Assembly: GCA_021773135.1 (NCBI GenBank)
Contig: JAJFKP010000004.1
Location: 62,001-126,000 of the forward strand
Direction of reading: 5' to 3'
DNA: 64,000 nt
From: Woeseiaceae bacterium
Lineage (GTDB): Bacteria; Pseudomonadota; Gammaproteobacteria; Steroidobacterales; Woeseiaceae
The position numbers and the translations under genes are program-made. Shown one piece after another: positions 33,002 through 44,905 of the stretch. Numbering within the stretch: the stretch's first letter is position 1; every line of letters starts with the position of its first letter. The notes under the pieces are model-generated. The model had not been told where the DNA came from and made no database searches. It saw only the letters and a program-made list of their open reading frames with translations.

Positions 33002-34099
33002 ATGAAGAGACGGCAATTTGTGACGGCAATGGCAGCAGCAGCGGGCGTATCTGCTTGCGCACAGGATAACGACGCCGGGAGCAGCGGCGTGACGGCCGCA
33101 TCGCAACAGACATTCGAGTGGAACCTGGTCACAAGCTGGCCGCCAAACCTTCCCGGCCTCGGCGTCGGTATCCAGAATATGGCTGACCGCATTGGCAAAG
33201 CCAGCAACGGCCGCCTGAAAATCAAAGTGTACGCAGGCGGTGAGCTGGTGCCCGCGCTGGAAGTACTGGATGCGGTGAGTCGCGGTACGGTGCAGATGGG
33301 GCACGATTCGGCCTATTACCATCGCGGCAAGGTACCGGCGGCGCAATACTTTACAACGGTGCCATTCGGGCAGACCGTTCACGAGATCAATGCCTGGCTG
33401 TATTATGGCGGCGGACTGGAGTTGTGGCGCGAGCTATACGAGCCGTTCAATGTAATCCCTTTCGTCGCTGGTAATACCGGCGTGCAAATGGCCGGTTGGT
33501 TTAATAAGGAAATTAACTCGGTCGAGGATCTGAAGGGGCTGAAGATGCGCATCCCGGGTGTCGGCGGTGAGGTGATGCAACGTGCGGGCGCAACCCAGAT
33601 TACCGTTCCGGCCTCGGAAATATTCACAGCCCTGCAGACCGGCGCGATCGATGCCGCCGAGTGGGTCGGCCCATACAATGACATCGCGCTGGGCCTGCAC
33701 AAAGCAGCGCGCTATTACTACTACCCCGGATGGCACGAGCCCGGTCCCATGCTGCAATTAACGATCAACATTGATGCCTGGAATTCATTACCGGAAGACC
33801 TGCAGGAAATTGTCAGGTCAGTTTGCCAGGCAATCAACCTGGATATGATGGCGGACTATACCTGGGGCAACGCAGTCGCGCTGCAGGAGCTGAAGAAGGA
33901 TCCGAACGTCGAGTTGCGGCGATTGCCGGATGACGTGTTGCGGCTGTTACGACAATACAGTCGCGAAGCCATCGATAAAATGTCCGCCGGCAACGACTTT
34001 GCCGCACGCATCCAGGCGTCATTCGATGCCTTCCAGAGCATGGCAATTCCGTATCACGAAATAACCGAACTCGCCTACCTGAACGCGAGATCTCTGTAA
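33002..34099 (+). CDS. TRAP transporter substrate-binding protein (DctP/TakP-like)
   Basis: A 365-residue periplasmic binding protein. The N terminus MKRRQFVTAMAAAAGVSAC combines a twin-arginine-like pair with a lipobox-like VSAC, suggesting a Tat-exported lipoprotein. The binding domain has LVTSWPPNLPGLGVGIQNMADRI, GGELVPALEVLDAVSRGTVQMGH and KGLKMRIPGVGGEVMQRAGAT with the conserved substrate carboxylate-binding Arg; ligands are probably organic acids such as 2-oxoacids. The membrane subunits lie downstream on the opposite strand, convergent, 16 bases away. Confidence 0.9.
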   Translation: MKRRQFVTAMAAAAGVSACAQDNDAGSSGVTAASQQTFEWNLVTSWPPNLPGLGVGIQNMADRIGKASNGRLKIKVYAGGELVPALEVLDAVSRGTVQMGHDSAYYHRGKVPAAQYFTTVPFGQTVHEINAWLYYGGGLELWRELYEPFNVIPFVAGNTGVQMAGWFNKEINSVEDLKGLKMRIPGVGGEVMQRAGATQITVPASEIFTALQTGAIDAAEWVGPYNDIALGLHKAARYYYYPGWHEPGPMLQLTINIDAWNSLPEDLQEIVRSVCQAINLDMMADYTWGNAVALQELKKDPNVELRRLPDDVLRLLRQYSREAIDKMSAGNDFAARIQASFDAFQSMAIPYHEITELAYLNARSL

Positions 34100-34101
34100 C
34101 C

Positions 34102-34115
34102 GCGTGGTCACACGC
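34102..34115. terminator. Small hairpin between convergent TRAP genes
   Basis: GCGTG and CACGC pair around GTCA in the 16-base gap between the dctP-type and dctM-type stops. Short stem and no T-run; only a weak candidate. Confidence 0.25.
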
Positions 34116-35483
34116 CTAGTTGTAGAGGCGATTCGGCAACCAGGTAACGATGTCCGGAAACATGGCCAGGATGATCAGTGCAAGAATCTGTATGCCGACA
34201 AAGGGAATGACGCCGCGATAAATCTGCCCGGTGGTCACCTCGGCCGGCGCAACGCCGCGCAGGTAAAAAAGTGCGAAGCCGAACGGCGGCGTAAGGAATG
34301 AAGTTTGCAGGTTAATCGCAATCATTATCCCCAGCCAGACCGGGTCGAGACCCATCGACAGCAACACCGGTGCAACGATGGGCACAACCACAAACGTAAT
34401 TTCAATGAAGTCGAGTACGAACCCCAGCAGAAACATCACGAGCATGACGACCAGCAGTGCGCTGAATACGCCTCCCGGCAGCGCCTCCAGTACAGTGCGT
34501 ACGCCGTCATCGCCGCCGTAGCCGCGAAAGACGAGCGAAAATACCGAGGCGCCGATCAGGATCATGAACACCATGCTGCTGATGCGCAGCGTGCCGCGCA
34601 TAATTTCCTGCAGCCGGGAAAACGAGAGCCCGCCCCGCTGCATCGCGATCAGCAGCGCACCCATTGCACCGACGCCCGCAGCCTCCGTTGGGGTTGCCAG
34701 GCCACCGAGAATGGAGCCAAGGACACCAAGTATCAGAATAAGTGGCGGCAGAAGCGCGTTAACCAGCCTGCCAAGCGACACCTTCTCATCGCCCGCTACA
34801 TGGGCGGGCATGACAGACGGTCGCAATACGGCAGTCAGAACAAGATAGGCAACATAAAGGACAACGAGCAGCAAACCGGGAATCAATGCGCCCGCAAACA
34901 AATCTCCAACAGATACGGTCTTCGGCGAAAAAACCCCCTGCGAAAGCTGCGCCTGCTGGTAGGCAGACGACATGACGTCGCCCAGCATCACCAGGATGAT
35001 CGAGGGCGGAATGATCTGGCCCAGCGTTCCGGACGCACAAATCGTGCCGCTCGCAATCTCGGCTGAGTACCCACGCTTCAGCATCGTCGGCAGGGACAGA
35101 AGCCCCATCGTGACGACCGTTGCACCCACAATGCCGGTACTGGCCGCCAGCAACATACCGACCAGCGTAACGGATATTCCAAGCCCGCCGCGCAGCGAGC
35201 CAAACAACGCGCTCAGTGTTTCGAGCAGGTCCTCTGCAATCCTGGCCCGCTCAAGCGTTATGCCCATAAACACAAACAGCGGTACCGCAATCAGCGTCTC
35301 ATTGGTCATGATGCCGAAGAGCCTGCTGGGGAGGCCGGTGAGAAATGCCGCTTCAAAGCCGCCGCCGATAACGCCGGCAAGCGCAAACATCAGCGCAGTG
35401 CCGCCGAGAGAAAAAGCAACGGGAAAACCCGCCAGCAGCAGCAGCACAACAGAGACAAACAGCAGCAACGCCATCCACTCCAT
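34116..35483 (-). CDS. TRAP transporter large permease subunit (DctM-like)
   Basis: A 455-residue inner-membrane protein with about 12 hydrophobic segments. Typical: FPVAFSLGGTALMFALAG near the N terminus, LIAVPLFVFMGITLERA, ASGTLGQIIPPSIILVMLGD and FLTPPFGFALFYLRG. It is the sodium-coupled translocating subunit. It starts two bases after the small subunit, after trkA-trkH on the same strand. Related to the variety carrying mannitol, oxoacids or other carboxylates; substrate not known. Confidence 0.93.
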   Translation of the reverse strand: MEWMALLLFVSVVLLLLAGFPVAFSLGGTALMFALAGVIGGGFEAAFLTGLPSRLFGIMTNETLIAVPLFVFMGITLERARIAEDLLETLSALFGSLRGGLGISVTLVGMLLAASTGIVGATVVTMGLLSLPTMLKRGYSAEIASGTICASGTLGQIIPPSIILVMLGDVMSSAYQQAQLSQGVFSPKTVSVGDLFAGALIPGLLLVVLYVAYLVLTAVLRPSVMPAHVAGDEKVSLGRLVNALLPPLILILGVLGSILGGLATPTEAAGVGAMGALLIAMQRGGLSFSRLQEIMRGTLRISSMVFMILIGASVFSLVFRGYGGDDGVRTVLEALPGGVFSALLVVMLVMFLLGFVLDFIEITFVVVPIVAPVLLSMGLDPVWLGIMIAINLQTSFLTPPFGFALFYLRGVAPAEVTTGQIYRGVIPFVGIQILALIILAMFPDIVTWLPNRLYN

Positions 35484-35485
35484 GC

Positions 35486-36001
35486 TCAGCGACCTTTCAA
35501 TTCGCGCAGTGAGAGTAACGCCAGCGACACACCCTGCAATGCAACCAATAACGGCATGACGAGCAGCATCGATTTTAGGAGGGGCAGCAACGGGTATGGC
35601 AGACCCCCCGCATTAAGCGATACTTCGCGAATATTCCAGGACGCGGCAACGTAGTCGAGCGCCTCATAGGCAAAGAAGCAGCACAGTGGCAACACGAAAA
35701 AAATTACGCCAGCCAGGTCGACAATGGCCTGCTTTTTTCGAGACATGTCGCGATAAAAAATATCGACGCGAACGTGCTCGTCGCGCTGCATCGTGTAAGC
35801 CGCGCCCAGCATGAACACGGTGGCGTGCATCCAGGTCAGCGACTCCTGCAGCCAGATGAAGCCGCTGTCAAAAACGTAACGAATTACGACGATCACAAAA
35901 CTGACGATGACCATGGCAAGCGTGAGCCACGCCGTGGCACGACCGATACCAATGTTAACCCTGTCGATCACGGTGCGCTGCACCGCTGACCCGGCCGCCA
36001 T
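35486..36001 (-). CDS. TRAP transporter small permease subunit (DctQ-like)
   Basis: A 171-residue protein with four hydrophobic segments and the conserved WLQESLTWMHATVFMLGAAYTMQRDEHVRVDIFY stretch of DctQ. The ATG at 36001 overlaps the trkH stop as TGATG, which fixes the start and implies translation coupled to trkH; an upstream frame extension to 36088 runs inside trkH and is unlikely. Confidence 0.9.
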   Translation of the reverse strand: MAAGSAVQRTVIDRVNIGIGRATAWLTLAMVIVSFVIVVIRYVFDSGFIWLQESLTWMHATVFMLGAAYTMQRDEHVRVDIFYRDMSRKKQAIVDLAGVIFFVLPLCCFFAYEALDYVAASWNIREVSLNAGGLPYPLLPLLKSMLLVMPLLVALQGVSLALLSLRELKGR

Positions 36002-41227: not shown

Positions 41228-42895
41228 TTAGGGGGACCAGCGCACGCCGACCAGGTACTGATTGCGTTCATACTGAATGCGAGTATCGTTCGATGCCGCC
41301 TCGCGCAGCGCGTATTCGGCGACAATATCCAGCGACTCGGTCATTTTGAACGTTCCTACGATGCGACCCGTTGCCGTTTCAAGCGTCTTGCGACCGGCCG
41401 TAGGCTCATGGAAGGCAAACGCATTCTCGTAGTTGTAGATGCTGAAGACGCCGGACGCTTCAAGATCGAAACGCTGACCTAGCTGCAGGTGGAAAGCCGC
41501 GCGATAGCCATCGCGAATATAGTTATTGTACCCAACGTAGCGATCTTCGCGATCGGTACGCGTGTACCCGACGCTAAACCACATGGAATTGGTGATACGC
41601 TGACGTGCTTCGACGCCGGCCTCCAGGTAGTCGTAGCGTATCGTTTCGTTACCAATAAGCTGCCTTCCGTCGAGCTCGAACGAGGGGCGATCACCGAATC
41701 TGCGCGTGTAATACTTTGTAGTGACGCGTAGCAGCGATGTGGACGTAAATCGATACTGGCCATTCAAGCCTACCGACCAGTATTCGTGGTCGTATTCCGG
41801 CGCGATCTCTATATCACTATAGTTCCACAGCTGTCCGGTTGCGCGGCCTCCAAGCGTAATCGCACCGAATCGTTTCCGCAGCCAGAATTCCGGGCCGTAG
41901 CGCAGGTAGGAAAGTCGGTCTGATATATCCACGCCACCGATATCGCGTTCGAGGCCATTGTCCGGGTCATAGTAACTTTCTTCATGTTGTGCAATTTTGA
42001 AGGCGCTGAATACGCGCGTTTCCCCGGTCTCGGTTTTACGCTGGTACTCGCTGCCGAAGCCGACCTCGTGCAGATACTCATCGCCATTCTTGAGATTCTT
42101 GTCCTGATAGAATCGTCCACCAAAACGGTAGCTGCCAAAAAAGCCCTCGTGCTCAAGACTATTGACCTTGTACTTGGCATTGACACTGATCGGTACGTAA
42201 AGTCCGCTTTGTACCACCGGCGTCACCACGGGGAGTGCCGGATCTGCAAGATCAACATAGGGTGTGTCGGGACTGCGAAACACATTGCTGTCCATCGCGG
42301 CACCGGAACGAATGCGGATGTCGAGATTGGTAAAACTTCGTTCTCGCTCCTGGACAGCAGCCACCGCGGTCACAGGCGCTGTCGCTTCGAGGTCACGCTG
42401 TATTTGGCTGATGGCGCGTCCTGCAAGCTGGCTTATGTCACTACGCTGTTGTTGTGTCCGAGCCTGGCGCAGCCACCGGAGTGCTTCGGCGAGGTTGCCC
42501 ATTCGATAAGCATTCAAGCCAAGGTTGTAATGGGAAATTGCTTCCAGCGGACCGTAGGTCGCCGATTTCTCCAGCGCATTGCGGGCCCGTGAATATTGAC
42601 CAGCGCGGTAGTGTGCGACGCCAGTGTTGTAATGTAACAGCGGCGTGTCCATGCCGGCCGCGGCAGCTTCCCGATACCGCAACAGCGCCGCCCAATACAG
42701 GTCGTCACGAAAGAGCCGGTTGCCGTCTGCAAACAGCTCACTGGCGGTCGCTGCCAGCGCAGACGAAACAGGCAGCACGCAGACCAGAACAACGATGGCC
42801 ACGGCCTGCTGTAGTTTGCGTGCGAATCTACCTGCTTGATTGGGTCGCGGATCCGTAATTGTTCTGCTCTCCTGGCGGGGTGCAAAGCGCGTCAT
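41228..42895 (-). CDS. TPR-containing outer-membrane beta-barrel-like protein
   Basis: A ~555-residue exported protein: basic N terminus, hydrophobic signal segment ending SSALAA, TPR repeats at about 45-160 (LFRDDLYWAALLRYREAAAAG, LLHYNTGVAHYRAGQYSRARNALEKSA, SHYNLGLNAYRMGNLAEALRWLRQA), then a long alternating-hydrophobic C-terminal half rich in Tyr, Arg and Asn with strands of the WFSVGYTRTD type, ending YLVGVRWSP. The layout resembles TPR-plus-barrel proteins such as surface lipoprotein assembly modifiers, but I cannot assign a function. A GTG at 42931 would add 12 residues. No partner gene adjoins. Confidence 0.75.
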   Translation of the reverse strand: MTRFAPRQESRTITDPRPNQAGRFARKLQQAVAIVVLVCVLPVSSALAATASELFADGNRLFRDDLYWAALLRYREAAAAGMDTPLLHYNTGVAHYRAGQYSRARNALEKSATYGPLEAISHYNLGLNAYRMGNLAEALRWLRQARTQQQRSDISQLAGRAISQIQRDLEATAPVTAVAAVQERERSFTNLDIRIRSGAAMDSNVFRSPDTPYVDLADPALPVVTPVVQSGLYVPISVNAKYKVNSLEHEGFFGSYRFGGRFYQDKNLKNGDEYLHEVGFGSEYQRKTETGETRVFSAFKIAQHEESYYDPDNGLERDIGGVDISDRLSYLRYGPEFWLRKRFGAITLGGRATGQLWNYSDIEIAPEYDHEYWSVGLNGQYRFTSTSLLRVTTKYYTRRFGDRPSFELDGRQLIGNETIRYDYLEAGVEARQRITNSMWFSVGYTRTDREDRYVGYNNYIRDGYRAAFHLQLGQRFDLEASGVFSIYNYENAFAFHEPTAGRKTLETATGRIVGTFKMTESLDIVAEYALREAASNDTRIQYERNQYLVGVRWSP

Positions 42896-42961
42896 ATCAG
42901 GGCATTTTGCCCGGTTATGGAAAATTCGCACTAATTGGTGTTCAACACTGTGACGTGGCGC

Positions 42962-42996
42962 AAAAAAATCCCCCTATTGCGTCAACAATGGGGGAA
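42962..42996 (-). terminator. Intrinsic terminator of the sigma/anti-sigma/acidic-protein operon
   Basis: On the minus strand CCCCCATTG pairs with CAATAGGGGG across TTGACG (one bulge), followed by seven T residues. It sits about 70 bases after the acidic protein's stop and before the TPR gene, so the two are separate transcripts. Confidence 0.85.
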
Positions 42997-43065
42997 TTTC
43001 TGGCTAATCGCGGCAATTTGGCGTAAATCCGATCTCCGGCATTAACGGGCGGTGCATCGCGACGA

Positions 43066-43572
43066 TCAGGCTAGCCCGTCAGCTTCGGCACCGTCATCGT
43101 CCGACATTTCGTCACGACTGCTGGCGACGTCATCGTCATCATCATCGTCGTCGTCATCGTCCATCTCGTCGTCTTCCATTTCTTCTTCGTCAAACTCGTC
43201 GGTGTCAATCTCATCGCCTTCGTCGAAGTCGCTCTCGTCCTCGGAATGTTCCTCATCTTCGTCGGATTCAAAATCTTCATCGTGATCGAAATCATCGTCG
43301 CGTGCCATTTCATCATCGAAAAACGATTCTTCTTCGTCACGAATATCGTCATCGCGTTCGTCCATGTCGTCGTTTTCGTCCTGATCCATGAAATCGTCGT
43401 CGTCATCCATGTCGGGTCCGCGCAGTTCCATGACGTGTCCATCAAGATCACCGATATCGTCGAGAACCTCCATGGTCATATCGAGTTCGTCATCATCCGC
43501 TGCGGCGATTGCCGGGAACGTTGCCAGGCATGTCATGGCGAGGCTCGCAGCAAATAGTCTGATCGTTTTCAT
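43066..43572 (-). CDS. Extremely acidic exported protein
   Basis: A 168-residue protein with a clear signal peptide (MKTIRLFAASLAMTCLATFPAIAA, cleavage near 24). The mature part is more than half Asp+Glu (by my count about 58 Asp and 26 Glu), with an uninterrupted run of 11 Asp near 139-149, several Met and few Lys/Arg. It should be disordered and strongly metal-binding in the periplasm. The DNA is a GAY-trinucleotide microsatellite in places (43132-43170). It follows the anti-sigma gene by 41 bases and is followed by a strong terminator. No family recognised; calcium or metal buffering is a guess. Confidence 0.8.
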   Translation of the reverse strand: MKTIRLFAASLAMTCLATFPAIAAADDDELDMTMEVLDDIGDLDGHVMELRGPDMDDDDDFMDQDENDDMDERDDDIRDEEESFFDDEMARDDDFDHDEDFESDEDEEHSEDESDFDEGDEIDTDEFDEEEMEDDEMDDDDDDDDDDDVASSRDEMSDDDGAEADGLA

Positions 43573-43613
43573 CCTGCTTTCTCCGTTTGATACTTCGGTA
43601 TCCCGAAGCTCCT

Positions 43614-44255
43614 TTAAATCACGGACACCTGCAGCCGGAACATCTTGTCATCGTTCCCATGCTGTAGCGTGGCCAAAAGTTCTCCGCCAACCGGCGACGT
43701 CGCAATAAGGGTCAACGGCAGAATGTTCCTGCCTTCCCTGAGACTGGTCATCCAGGTGATTTCTCTCTGCCCGGAGAATCCCTGTACTTCAATTCCATCG
43801 GGCAACGAAACCGTCATCGACGCGTCCGTCAGCGCGGTGGCGGAAGAAAATACGAGATTGAATGTTTGCGGTGATTCCAGCGCCATTGTGACGGTCGGTA
43901 TTGCCGGCTGGTCCGGCTCAGGGCTCAGGAACAATACGCTGCTCACAACCCAGATCATGAGACTGGCCGCTACTGCACCACCAAATCCGGTCATTACCCA
44001 GCGGTTTCTTTGTCGCTTTGCACCTGCTTGCGCGGCTCTCGCCAGGGCGCGGTCGTAAAAACCATTGGCGGGCTGGGGACAACTGGTTTCACCGAAGCGT
44101 GCCAGTCGAGTCAGCAACTCCCGGTGGCCGCCAACCAGGGCCTGGCAGGCGGCACAGTCCTGAACGTGTTGCTCGACGGCACGCCGCTCGTCGCTACTTG
44201 CCATCCCGTCAAGATAGTCATCGAGAATTTCAGTTACCTGGTCGCAATTCATCAT
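43614..44255 (-). CDS. Putative zinc-finger anti-sigma factor
   Basis: A 213-residue protein. The N terminus has the ZAS motif: Cys4, His30-x3-Cys34-x2-Cys37 (EQHVQDCAACQ), which binds zinc and holds the sigma factor. One membrane helix lies at about 86-108, followed by a periplasmic, beta-rich domain of ~100 residues that may sense envelope conditions. It lies 27 bases after the ECF sigma gene, the standard sigma/anti-sigma pairing. Confidence 0.88.
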   Translation of the reverse strand: MMNCDQVTEILDDYLDGMASSDERRAVEQHVQDCAACQALVGGHRELLTRLARFGETSCPQPANGFYDRALARAAQAGAKRQRNRWVMTGFGGAVAASLMIWVVSSVLFLSPEPDQPAIPTVTMALESPQTFNLVFSSATALTDASMTVSLPDGIEVQGFSGQREITWMTSLREGRNILPLTLIATSPVGGELLATLQHGNDDKMFRLQVSVI

Positions 44256-44282
44256 AGTCTTCCTTTTCAGTACCTAGAACGC

Positions 44283-44834
44283 TCAAATGGAAGAAAGGGT
44301 TCCATTCGCCACCAGAATTTCGCGCAGGCGCGCCCTTGCACGATGCAGGCGGGACTTCAGCGTACCGACGGGTACGCCGATAAGCTCTTGAATTTCGGTC
44401 AATTTATAGCCCTCGCAATCGTGCAATAGCACGACCATGCGGTGCTCGTCGCTGAGTGCCTGCAGTGCGCCTTCGAGCTCGTCTGCACAGTCCTGTTGTT
44501 CGGCATCGGCCTCGGGGTTCAGATCCCCGGCCACGGCGTCGATACCCTGCCCCGGCAGCTGGTCTTCGGACACTGCAACCAGGCGCTGGCGCGCATAGCG
44601 GCGGCGATTGTCGATGAAGTGGTTGTACATGATGCGACACAGCCAGGAACCGGGTTCCTCGATTTCTATGAGGCTGTCGAGCTTCGGAAAGACCTTCGTC
44701 AACACGTCCTGAAAAAGGTCTTCGGCCTCAGGCTTGTTGCCGCACAGACGGTAGGCGAGCCGATACAATCGATCGAGATGCGGCCTTAACAGGGTCTCGA
44801 AGCTTGCGCGCTGGTTGTCATCCGCCGAACTCAT
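44283..44834 (-). CDS. ECF-type RNA polymerase sigma factor
   Basis: A 183-residue sigma-70 family member with region 2 (YRLAYRLCGNKPEAEDLFQDVLTKVF) and region 4 (LQALSDEHRMVVLLHDCEGYKLTEIQELIGVPVGTLKSRLHRARARL) and no region 3, the ECF layout. It probably transcribes its own operon and an envelope-stress or metal-related regulon, restrained by the adjacent anti-sigma factor. The spacer to ctaB (71 bases) shows no obvious hairpin. Confidence 0.93.
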   Translation of the reverse strand: MSSADDNQRASFETLLRPHLDRLYRLAYRLCGNKPEAEDLFQDVLTKVFPKLDSLIEIEEPGSWLCRIMYNHFIDNRRRYARQRLVAVSEDQLPGQGIDAVAGDLNPEADAEQQDCADELEGALQALSDEHRMVVLLHDCEGYKLTEIQELIGVPVGTLKSRLHRARARLREILVANGTLSSI

Positions 44835-44905
44835 AGGCCCGAGTGTAGTAGCGGGCCATCAATTCACAAGGATCACGTCACAAATCTGAGAAACAGGTTC
44901 GAGTG

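Follow-up and report, generated by a model that had tools for sequence, protein, structure and literature searches.

A conserved ECF sigma factor locus in Woeseiaceae and relatives encodes a small exported protein that probably works with an anti-sigma switch and a predicted outer-membrane barrel

The window, by which we mean the whole 64,000-nt stretch of Woeseiaceae DNA analyzed here, carries four consecutive genes on its minus strand (Table 1). They encode an ECF sigma factor, a zinc-finger anti-sigma factor, a small exported protein of hyper-acidic composition (the third protein) and a protein combining TPRs with a predicted outer-membrane barrel, for which the ATG at 42895 is a possible true start. 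Gaps of 27 nt and 41 nt separate sigma from anti-sigma and anti-sigma from the third gene, respectively, and a ribosome-site-like GGAG stands upstream of the latter. A first-pass annotation had described three tandem minus-strand genes closing at a terminator, with which both the gene calls and the hairpin fold agree. Its reading of these genes as one transcript holds for the tandem order but overlooked a predicted internal sigma-type promoter and the fourth gene. Elsewhere in the window, positions 34001-36000 show the highest AT skew of any 2-kb step (0.305; next 0.167).

Table 1 Features of the sigma factor locus, with positions in the window
Feature	Position	Strand	Description or basis
ECF sigma factor gene	44283-44834	minus	183 aa; Pfam Sigma70_r2 and r4_2, TIGR02937
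Zinc-finger anti-sigma gene	43614-44255	minus	213 aa; zf-HC2; one membrane helix, predicted periplasmic Ig-like domain
Exported hyper-acidic protein gene (third gene)	43066-43572	minus	168 aa; post-signal motif at about residues 28-58
TPR and predicted 16-strand outer-membrane barrel protein gene (fourth gene)	41228-42931	minus	
Predicted ECF-type promoter GGAACC-N16-CGTTC	44277-44303	minus	precedes anti-sigma and acidic genes; cross-locus conservation
Candidate -35 of sigma gene, TTGTGA	44864-44869	minus	housekeeping-like; upstream-region comparison
Candidate -10 of sigma gene, TACACT	44842-44847	minus	7 nt from ATG; upstream-region comparison
Intrinsic terminator between acidic and TPR-barrel genes	42962-42995	minus	fold energy against shuffles
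Conserved block GCGCCACGTCA.AGT.TT (also written GCGCCACGTCATAGTTTT)	42944-42961	minus	directly past terminator; relatives

The sigma protein consists of sigma2 and sigma4 domains only and, at 183 aa, has the length of about 180-200 aa that defines ECF factors. When residues 2-183 were scanned, Sigma70_r2 and r4_2 exceeded their Pfam cut-offs, and TIGR02937 scored 94.5 bits against a cut-off of 42.9. The neighboring anti-sigma protein scores 40.7 bits with zf-HC2 (Pfam cut-off 22.2), finds its best PDB sequence match in RsiW (E 6.5e-6), and has the features of a class I (zinc-binding) anti-sigma factor, with HxxxCxxC in the sequence and N-terminal helices in the structural model. That model (pLDDT 82.8) begins with a helical part, passes through an uncertain membrane stretch at residues 88-114 and ends in a confident eight-strand domain. 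Across 92 residues, the predicted domain resembles Ig-like macroglobulin-type domains with VIA Z values as high as 9.9, a match that tells fold, not function. As a predicted anti-sigma factor, the protein would bind and inhibit the sigma factor.

The third protein has no Pfam or NCBIfam match up to E 0.1, and the annotation had likewise recognized no family. A Sec-like signal peptide is visible by eye, in keeping with the export proposed earlier. With the mature part taken, by our own reading, to start at residue 25, D or E account for 84 of its 144 residues (58.3%), which confirms the previously noted D/E content of about 58 percent. K and R together contribute five residues, and the longest run of D comprises 11, as had also been noted.

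We looked for the gene trio in other genomes, as had been proposed. An anti-sigma profile yielded 62 named loci, which we label Woeseiaceae-like with the exception of L085, L088, L090, L092 and L093; many of the records bear no title more specific than Gammaproteobacteria, Proteobacteria or Chromatiales. The third gene lies beside the anti-sigma gene in 61 of the 62, the one miss (L038) being a contig that ends within the anti-sigma gene, and the acidic gene is hence not missing from the operons of relatives. Forty further loci with flanks all contain sigma and anti-sigma genes, and by eye the third gene is present in each of them. Ten of these (L144-L153) come from the family or order of the window, with L153 repeating L073, and in L145-L151 the operon is present as a second, divergent copy. 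The thirds of L145 and L147-L151 read TIRLM...AVTKEITLP or variants thereof, mostly with a proline-rich end.

Of 369 Gammaproteobacteria genomes, 57 match the anti-sigma profile at E<=1e-6, 38 of them strongly (E<1e-20, a cut of our own), and 47 match the barrel profile at E<=1e-15, as tallied by hand from the best 8 anti-sigma and best 4 barrel candidates scored per genome. Strong anti-sigma and barrel matches occur together in 37 of the 369 genomes (Fisher p 2e-40, uncorrected for relatedness). A sample of the phylum gave matches at E<=1e-15 in 4 of 398 genomes, namely the window's own genome and three of one Gammaproteobacteria genus. Matches also include two named records whose titles place them outside the class, Desulfobulbaceae (L092) and Polarisedimenticolaceae (L085); as MAGs, either may have been binned wrongly. 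Since the loci are related, their counts are not independent, and co-conservation is silent on which protein binds which.

The anti-sigma factor itself varies within this set. Among the Woeseiaceae-like loci, the N-terminus is readable in 56 (L091 omitted), and in 40 of these the homologue lacks HxxxCxxC and has a short N-terminus. The 40 loci are L046-L072, L074-L082, L084, L086, L087 and L089, and the window is not among them. Inhibition of sigma may therefore be altered in these lineages. Their trimmed homologues retain the pre-membrane stretch, the membrane helix and the sensor. According to a coevolution study, helix 4 of such anti-sigma factors contacts sigma2 and helix 1 contacts sigma4 (PMC7406223), which makes an inhibitor consisting of helix 4 only conceivable for the trimmed homologues.

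Shortly upstream of the anti-sigma gene, GGAACC-N16-CGT is found with at most one mismatch over its nine bases in all 57 Woeseiaceae-like sequences (window included) and exactly in 55 of them (shuffled mean 0.04; L091 left out). At other loci, L144-L153 left aside, 33 of 38 carry it with at most one mismatch and 27 of 38 exactly (shuffled mean 0.01). Because the loci are related, and because the -35 bases are also protein-coding where they overlap sigma, these counts make the evidence look somewhat stronger than it is. The window's -35 (44303-44298) falls within the last codons of the sigma gene, and the -10 reads CGTTC, the usual form being CGTGT. The conservation of this element indicates that the sigma factor very probably drives the anti-sigma and exported protein genes. 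The search for exact GGAACC-N16-CGTGT in 8 genomes, seven of them picked because their locus carries this sequence, returned 32 sites (6 for the reversed pattern), 12 of which lie at the four-gene locus, so that the regulon may be small. The window's own genome contributes 3 exact sites, all elsewhere and without a clear target. In genome G069, one exact site (L207) lies ~100 nt upstream of a gene that we take to be rpoH.

The sigma gene appears to be preceded by a different kind of element in the Woeseiaceae-like group. Near the sigma start of the other loci, GGAACC-N15to17-CGTGT occurs with at most one mismatch in 14 of 38 (shuffles 0.18). A candidate ECF promoter upstream of the window sigma gene (GAACC with an 18-nt gap) was rejected as not conserved, since 0 of 50 Woeseiaceae-like upstream regions come within one mismatch of the consensus. 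CTTGT-N18-TACA is exact in 15 of 50 Woeseiaceae-like sigma upstream regions, the window included (shuffle maximum 3), and TTGTGA-N16-TACACT is a possible housekeeping-like promoter of the sigma gene. As this pair ends 7 nt ahead of the ATG, the sigma mRNA may be nearly leaderless. A sigma-70 promoter scan returned 0 sites. When 2 mismatches to the sigma-gene promoter pattern were allowed, a scan of the window gave 1 unrelated site (2.5 expected by chance); the real site went unlisted since the scanned spacing was one base shorter.

Between the third and fourth genes, the window terminator, a hairpin followed by a T run, folds at -21.7 kcal/mol (z -4.4), a value equaled by 0 of 200 shuffles. 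A simple terminator scan of the window did not list this hairpin, probably because of its bulged stem. Hairpins of -10 kcal/mol or lower ahead of a T run are present in 55 of 56 Woeseiaceae-like sequences, compared to 28 of 56 when shuffled, with medians of -19.2 and -9.95 kcal/mol, respectively. The 18-nt block directly past the terminator recurs with up to five mismatches in 50 of 56 Woeseiaceae-like sequences (two mismatches in the window) and in 0 of 56 shuffled ones, where the shuffles, like those for the promoters and the relatives' hairpins, preserve single-base composition only. This block may serve the barrel gene as a promoter or as a binding site.

The model of the fourth protein (pLDDT 87.3) shows helices at residues 63-197, read as TPRs, leading into 16 strands. 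In Foldseek, the BcsC exporter takes its top two rows (E 5.8e-11), with a TM of only 0.33, and the best 60 of 149 PDB matches to its sequence profile align with the TPR region. Compared separately, the barrel part reaches Z values of up to 19.9 with ordinary 16-strand porins and 17.7 with PgaA. The window protein has no Slam or BBP2_2 Pfam match up to E 0.1. Of three relatives, one (L088) reaches the BBP2_2 cut-off, at 25.9 against 23.7, and the other two remain below it; the Slam TPR model reaches 19.7 bits in L090, under its cut-off of 35.2. A Baseplate_J Pfam row (E 0.0009) lay below its own cut-off and was set aside.

A co-directional barrel gene lies downstream in 58 of the 62 named loci; of the remaining four, L038, L081 and L082 are at contig ends, and L092 has a weak match on the other strand. 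The same holds for 38 of the 40 further loci, the exceptions being L156, which lacks the gene, and L162, which carries it on the opposite strand. Many Woeseiaceae-like loci share their surroundings, with cytochrome oxidase genes and cyoE before and uvrD and trkA after the unit. L085, L088, L090 and L093 show no match to those flanks, yet the barrel gene still follows, pointing to a link beyond mere synteny.

This strong co-inheritance with the next gene, together with the modeled passage from TPRs into a 16-strand barrel and the BcsC rows, lends itself to the main rival of the explanation we favor below: the TPR-barrel would carry the small protein across the outer membrane, where its charged tail would coat the surface or be released, the whole constituting a sigma-controlled coat. 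Locus L167 would fit, as it pairs a third-like gene with a barrel gene and has no sigma or anti-sigma gene within 6 kb. However, genome G069 (L156/L180) contains the sigma, anti-sigma and third genes and no barrel match at E<=1e-15, and the scores of generic porins against the barrel part match or exceed those of exporters. Nor is the charge of the third protein consistently matched to that of the barrel. We compared it with the whole barrel protein, its TPR part, its barrel part and the anti-sigma domain, and 29 other loci gave a weak relation between third and barrel (rho -0.46, p 0.013, the best of eight uncorrected tests). The Woeseiaceae-like group runs the opposite way, acidic tails going with acidic barrels, and none of three correlations run within 53 such loci is significant. 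We do not claim charge matching. We regard the transport of the small protein through the barrel as rather unlikely. G069, which shows no barrel match, and L167, which has no nearby sigma or anti-sigma gene, are two single cases that may point to the third gene as what links the other parts.

What the third proteins have in common is a signal peptide followed by VTMxV, some residues, and IELP or a variant. The window version reads MTMEVLDD...ELRGP, and EMRGP is the Woeseiaceae variant of the second half. The pattern [VIM]T[MILV]x[VILMT] occurs in 54 of 61 thirds of the named loci (shuffled mean 0.7) and in 30 of 43 beyond the named set (shuffled mean 1.2), where L138 counts as a miss owing to a wrong coordinate although it has the motif. 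A two-part pattern fits 59 of 61 thirds in the named set and 13 of 43 outside it; the second half thus varies, or the pattern is too narrow. We also noticed that MTMEVL in the window motif resembles VTMALE, the strand with which the anti-sigma sensor begins, a similarity that might hint at strand mimicry.

Past the motif, the third proteins continue in low-complexity sequence whose length and composition drift widely. Within the Woeseiaceae-like thirds, pairwise identity is 0.50 in the motif segment and 0.52 in the signal peptide, compared with 0.34 and 0.38 in two tail segments, though one acidic block reaches 0.47. Such drift is what would be expected if the third gene were a fast-evolving by-product without a partner, kept by its position, with the barrel protein alone as the true output of the sigma factor. 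That all 62 named loci but one, which is cut by a contig end, and all 40 further ones retain the gene, mostly with the motif, makes this highly improbable in our judgment.

The annotation had proposed that a periplasmic polyanion takes up metal ions, cationic peptides or salt and is raised by the sigma factor under stress. All 56 Woeseiaceae-like thirds indeed keep a strongly acidic tail, with net charges of -37 to -132 and D+E contents of 29 to 65%, which leaves room for a lineage-specific ionic role. Another member of the family, the third of L023/L144 (126 aa, 29% D+E, net -27), has no long acidic runs but retains the motif and parts of the second conserved block. Corresponding operons elsewhere tell against the proposal: net charge ranges from -77 to +16 in 46 thirds from other loci, 7 of which are neutral or positive (e.g., L088 at +8 and L162 at +16; L138 stands at -4), while the gene order and mostly the motif persist. 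The conservation of the motif segment over that of the two tail segments, the one acidic block aside, points the same way. A polyanion is therefore ruled out as a conserved trait beyond the Woeseiaceae-like loci, and the hyper-acidic tail is better described as a lineage trait atop a wider family. Of the original proposal, the idea of a sigma unit that encodes its own probable target stands, whereas polyanion buffering finds no support as a mechanism across the loci. We consider it improbable as the explanation of the locus; metal or peptide buffering would at best be a lineage-specific use.

In many relatives, the small protein neighbors the same switch together with the same predicted outer-membrane channel, and it thus probably works with both rather than simply soaking up metals. 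Gene order and its conservation, the signal peptide, the motif, the promoter consensus and the drift in charge can be read directly from the sequences. The account we tentatively favor, and consider nearly an even bet, infers from them a four-gene ECF sigma module that regulates itself and in which the small exported protein takes part in a trans-envelope relay or feedback. The sigma factor would be held at the inner membrane by the anti-sigma factor, whose Ig-like domain would face the periplasm. Once freed, it would transcribe the anti-sigma and small exported protein genes from the promoter located at the 3' end of its own gene, and would perhaps also raise the barrel protein, whose gene sits beyond the terminator. 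Through its short motif, the small protein would contact another periplasmic component, the likeliest candidates being the anti-sigma Ig-like domain (residues 119-213), the barrel protein's TPR domain (residues 61-197) or both, and would thereby report the state of the outer membrane or barrel assembly to the sigma factor. Its low-complexity tail would serve as a tunable spacer or charge module, hyper-acidic in Woeseiaceae. We prefer such a relay or feedback role because the small protein is common to the genome without a barrel match and to the locus without sigma and anti-sigma, which would fit a partner of both. A bolder version, which strikes us as doubtful, has the small protein physically linking the outer-membrane TPR-barrel to the Ig-like anti-sigma sensor, sigma activity then being set by the state of the barrel. 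The motif would be kept as the tail charge drifts, and part of the Woeseiaceae would have an anti-sigma factor stripped to its last helix, anchor and sensor; this would be an undescribed system.

Several known systems share parts of this arrangement. In the ECF sigma/class I anti-sigma operons RpoE-RseA-RseB and SigW-RsiW, a self-regulated promoter goes together with a neighboring gene for an extra periplasmic protein. Our four-gene unit resembles them in its ECF sigma factor, its single-pass anti-sigma factor with an N-terminal sigma-binding bundle and a periplasmic domain, its predicted self-regulated promoter and its adjacent gene for an extra periplasmic protein. Unlike those operons, it has a periplasmic anti-sigma domain predicted to be Ig-like, it includes a TPR-barrel, and its extra protein is short and of low complexity, likeness to RseB being judged by family scans. 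The cell-surface signaling system FecI-FecR-FecA likewise combines an outer-membrane barrel, in this case a TonB receptor, with an inner-membrane anti-sigma factor and a sigma factor in one locus. The barrel predicted here is, in contrast, a 16-strand TPR protein, and a soluble third protein almost always accompanies it. CnrX, which is encoded with CnrY and CnrH, is also a small periplasmic protein accompanying a sigma and anti-sigma pair; as a folded metal sensor, it is set apart by description from our third protein.

For the barrel protein, periplasmic TPRs ahead of a beta-barrel are shared with BcsC/PgaA, Slam (type XI) and BBP2_2 porins, from which it differs in having four or so TPRs. 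BcsC/PgaA-type polysaccharide exporters combine a TPR array and a 16-strand barrel with a synthase encoded nearby, and it is by shape that the modeled window protein resembles them overall. Slam proteins of type XI secretion carry a TPR part and a DUF560-type barrel of 14 strands; the window protein has 16 modeled strands and, as noted, does not match Slam.

No description of the gene set was found in the literature searched, which had most subscription papers outside its reach. Such a unit is not mentioned in the accessible parts of an ECF review (PMC8103513) and of the coevolution study (PMC7406223). A Woeseiales transcript study reports an ECF sigma transcript named SigV at one site (PMC7451513), which we could not connect to the sigma gene of the window.

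ECF sigma circuits constitute a main route of bacterial envelope sensing, and many of their inputs are unknown. The small protein seems to hold a short motif while its tail shifts from strongly negative to positive, a caution that extreme composition in one genome is a poor guide to function. With one recognizable promoter, and with its anti-sigma factor and barrel together in 37 of 369 genomes, the four-gene unit represents a new candidate input route into these circuits.
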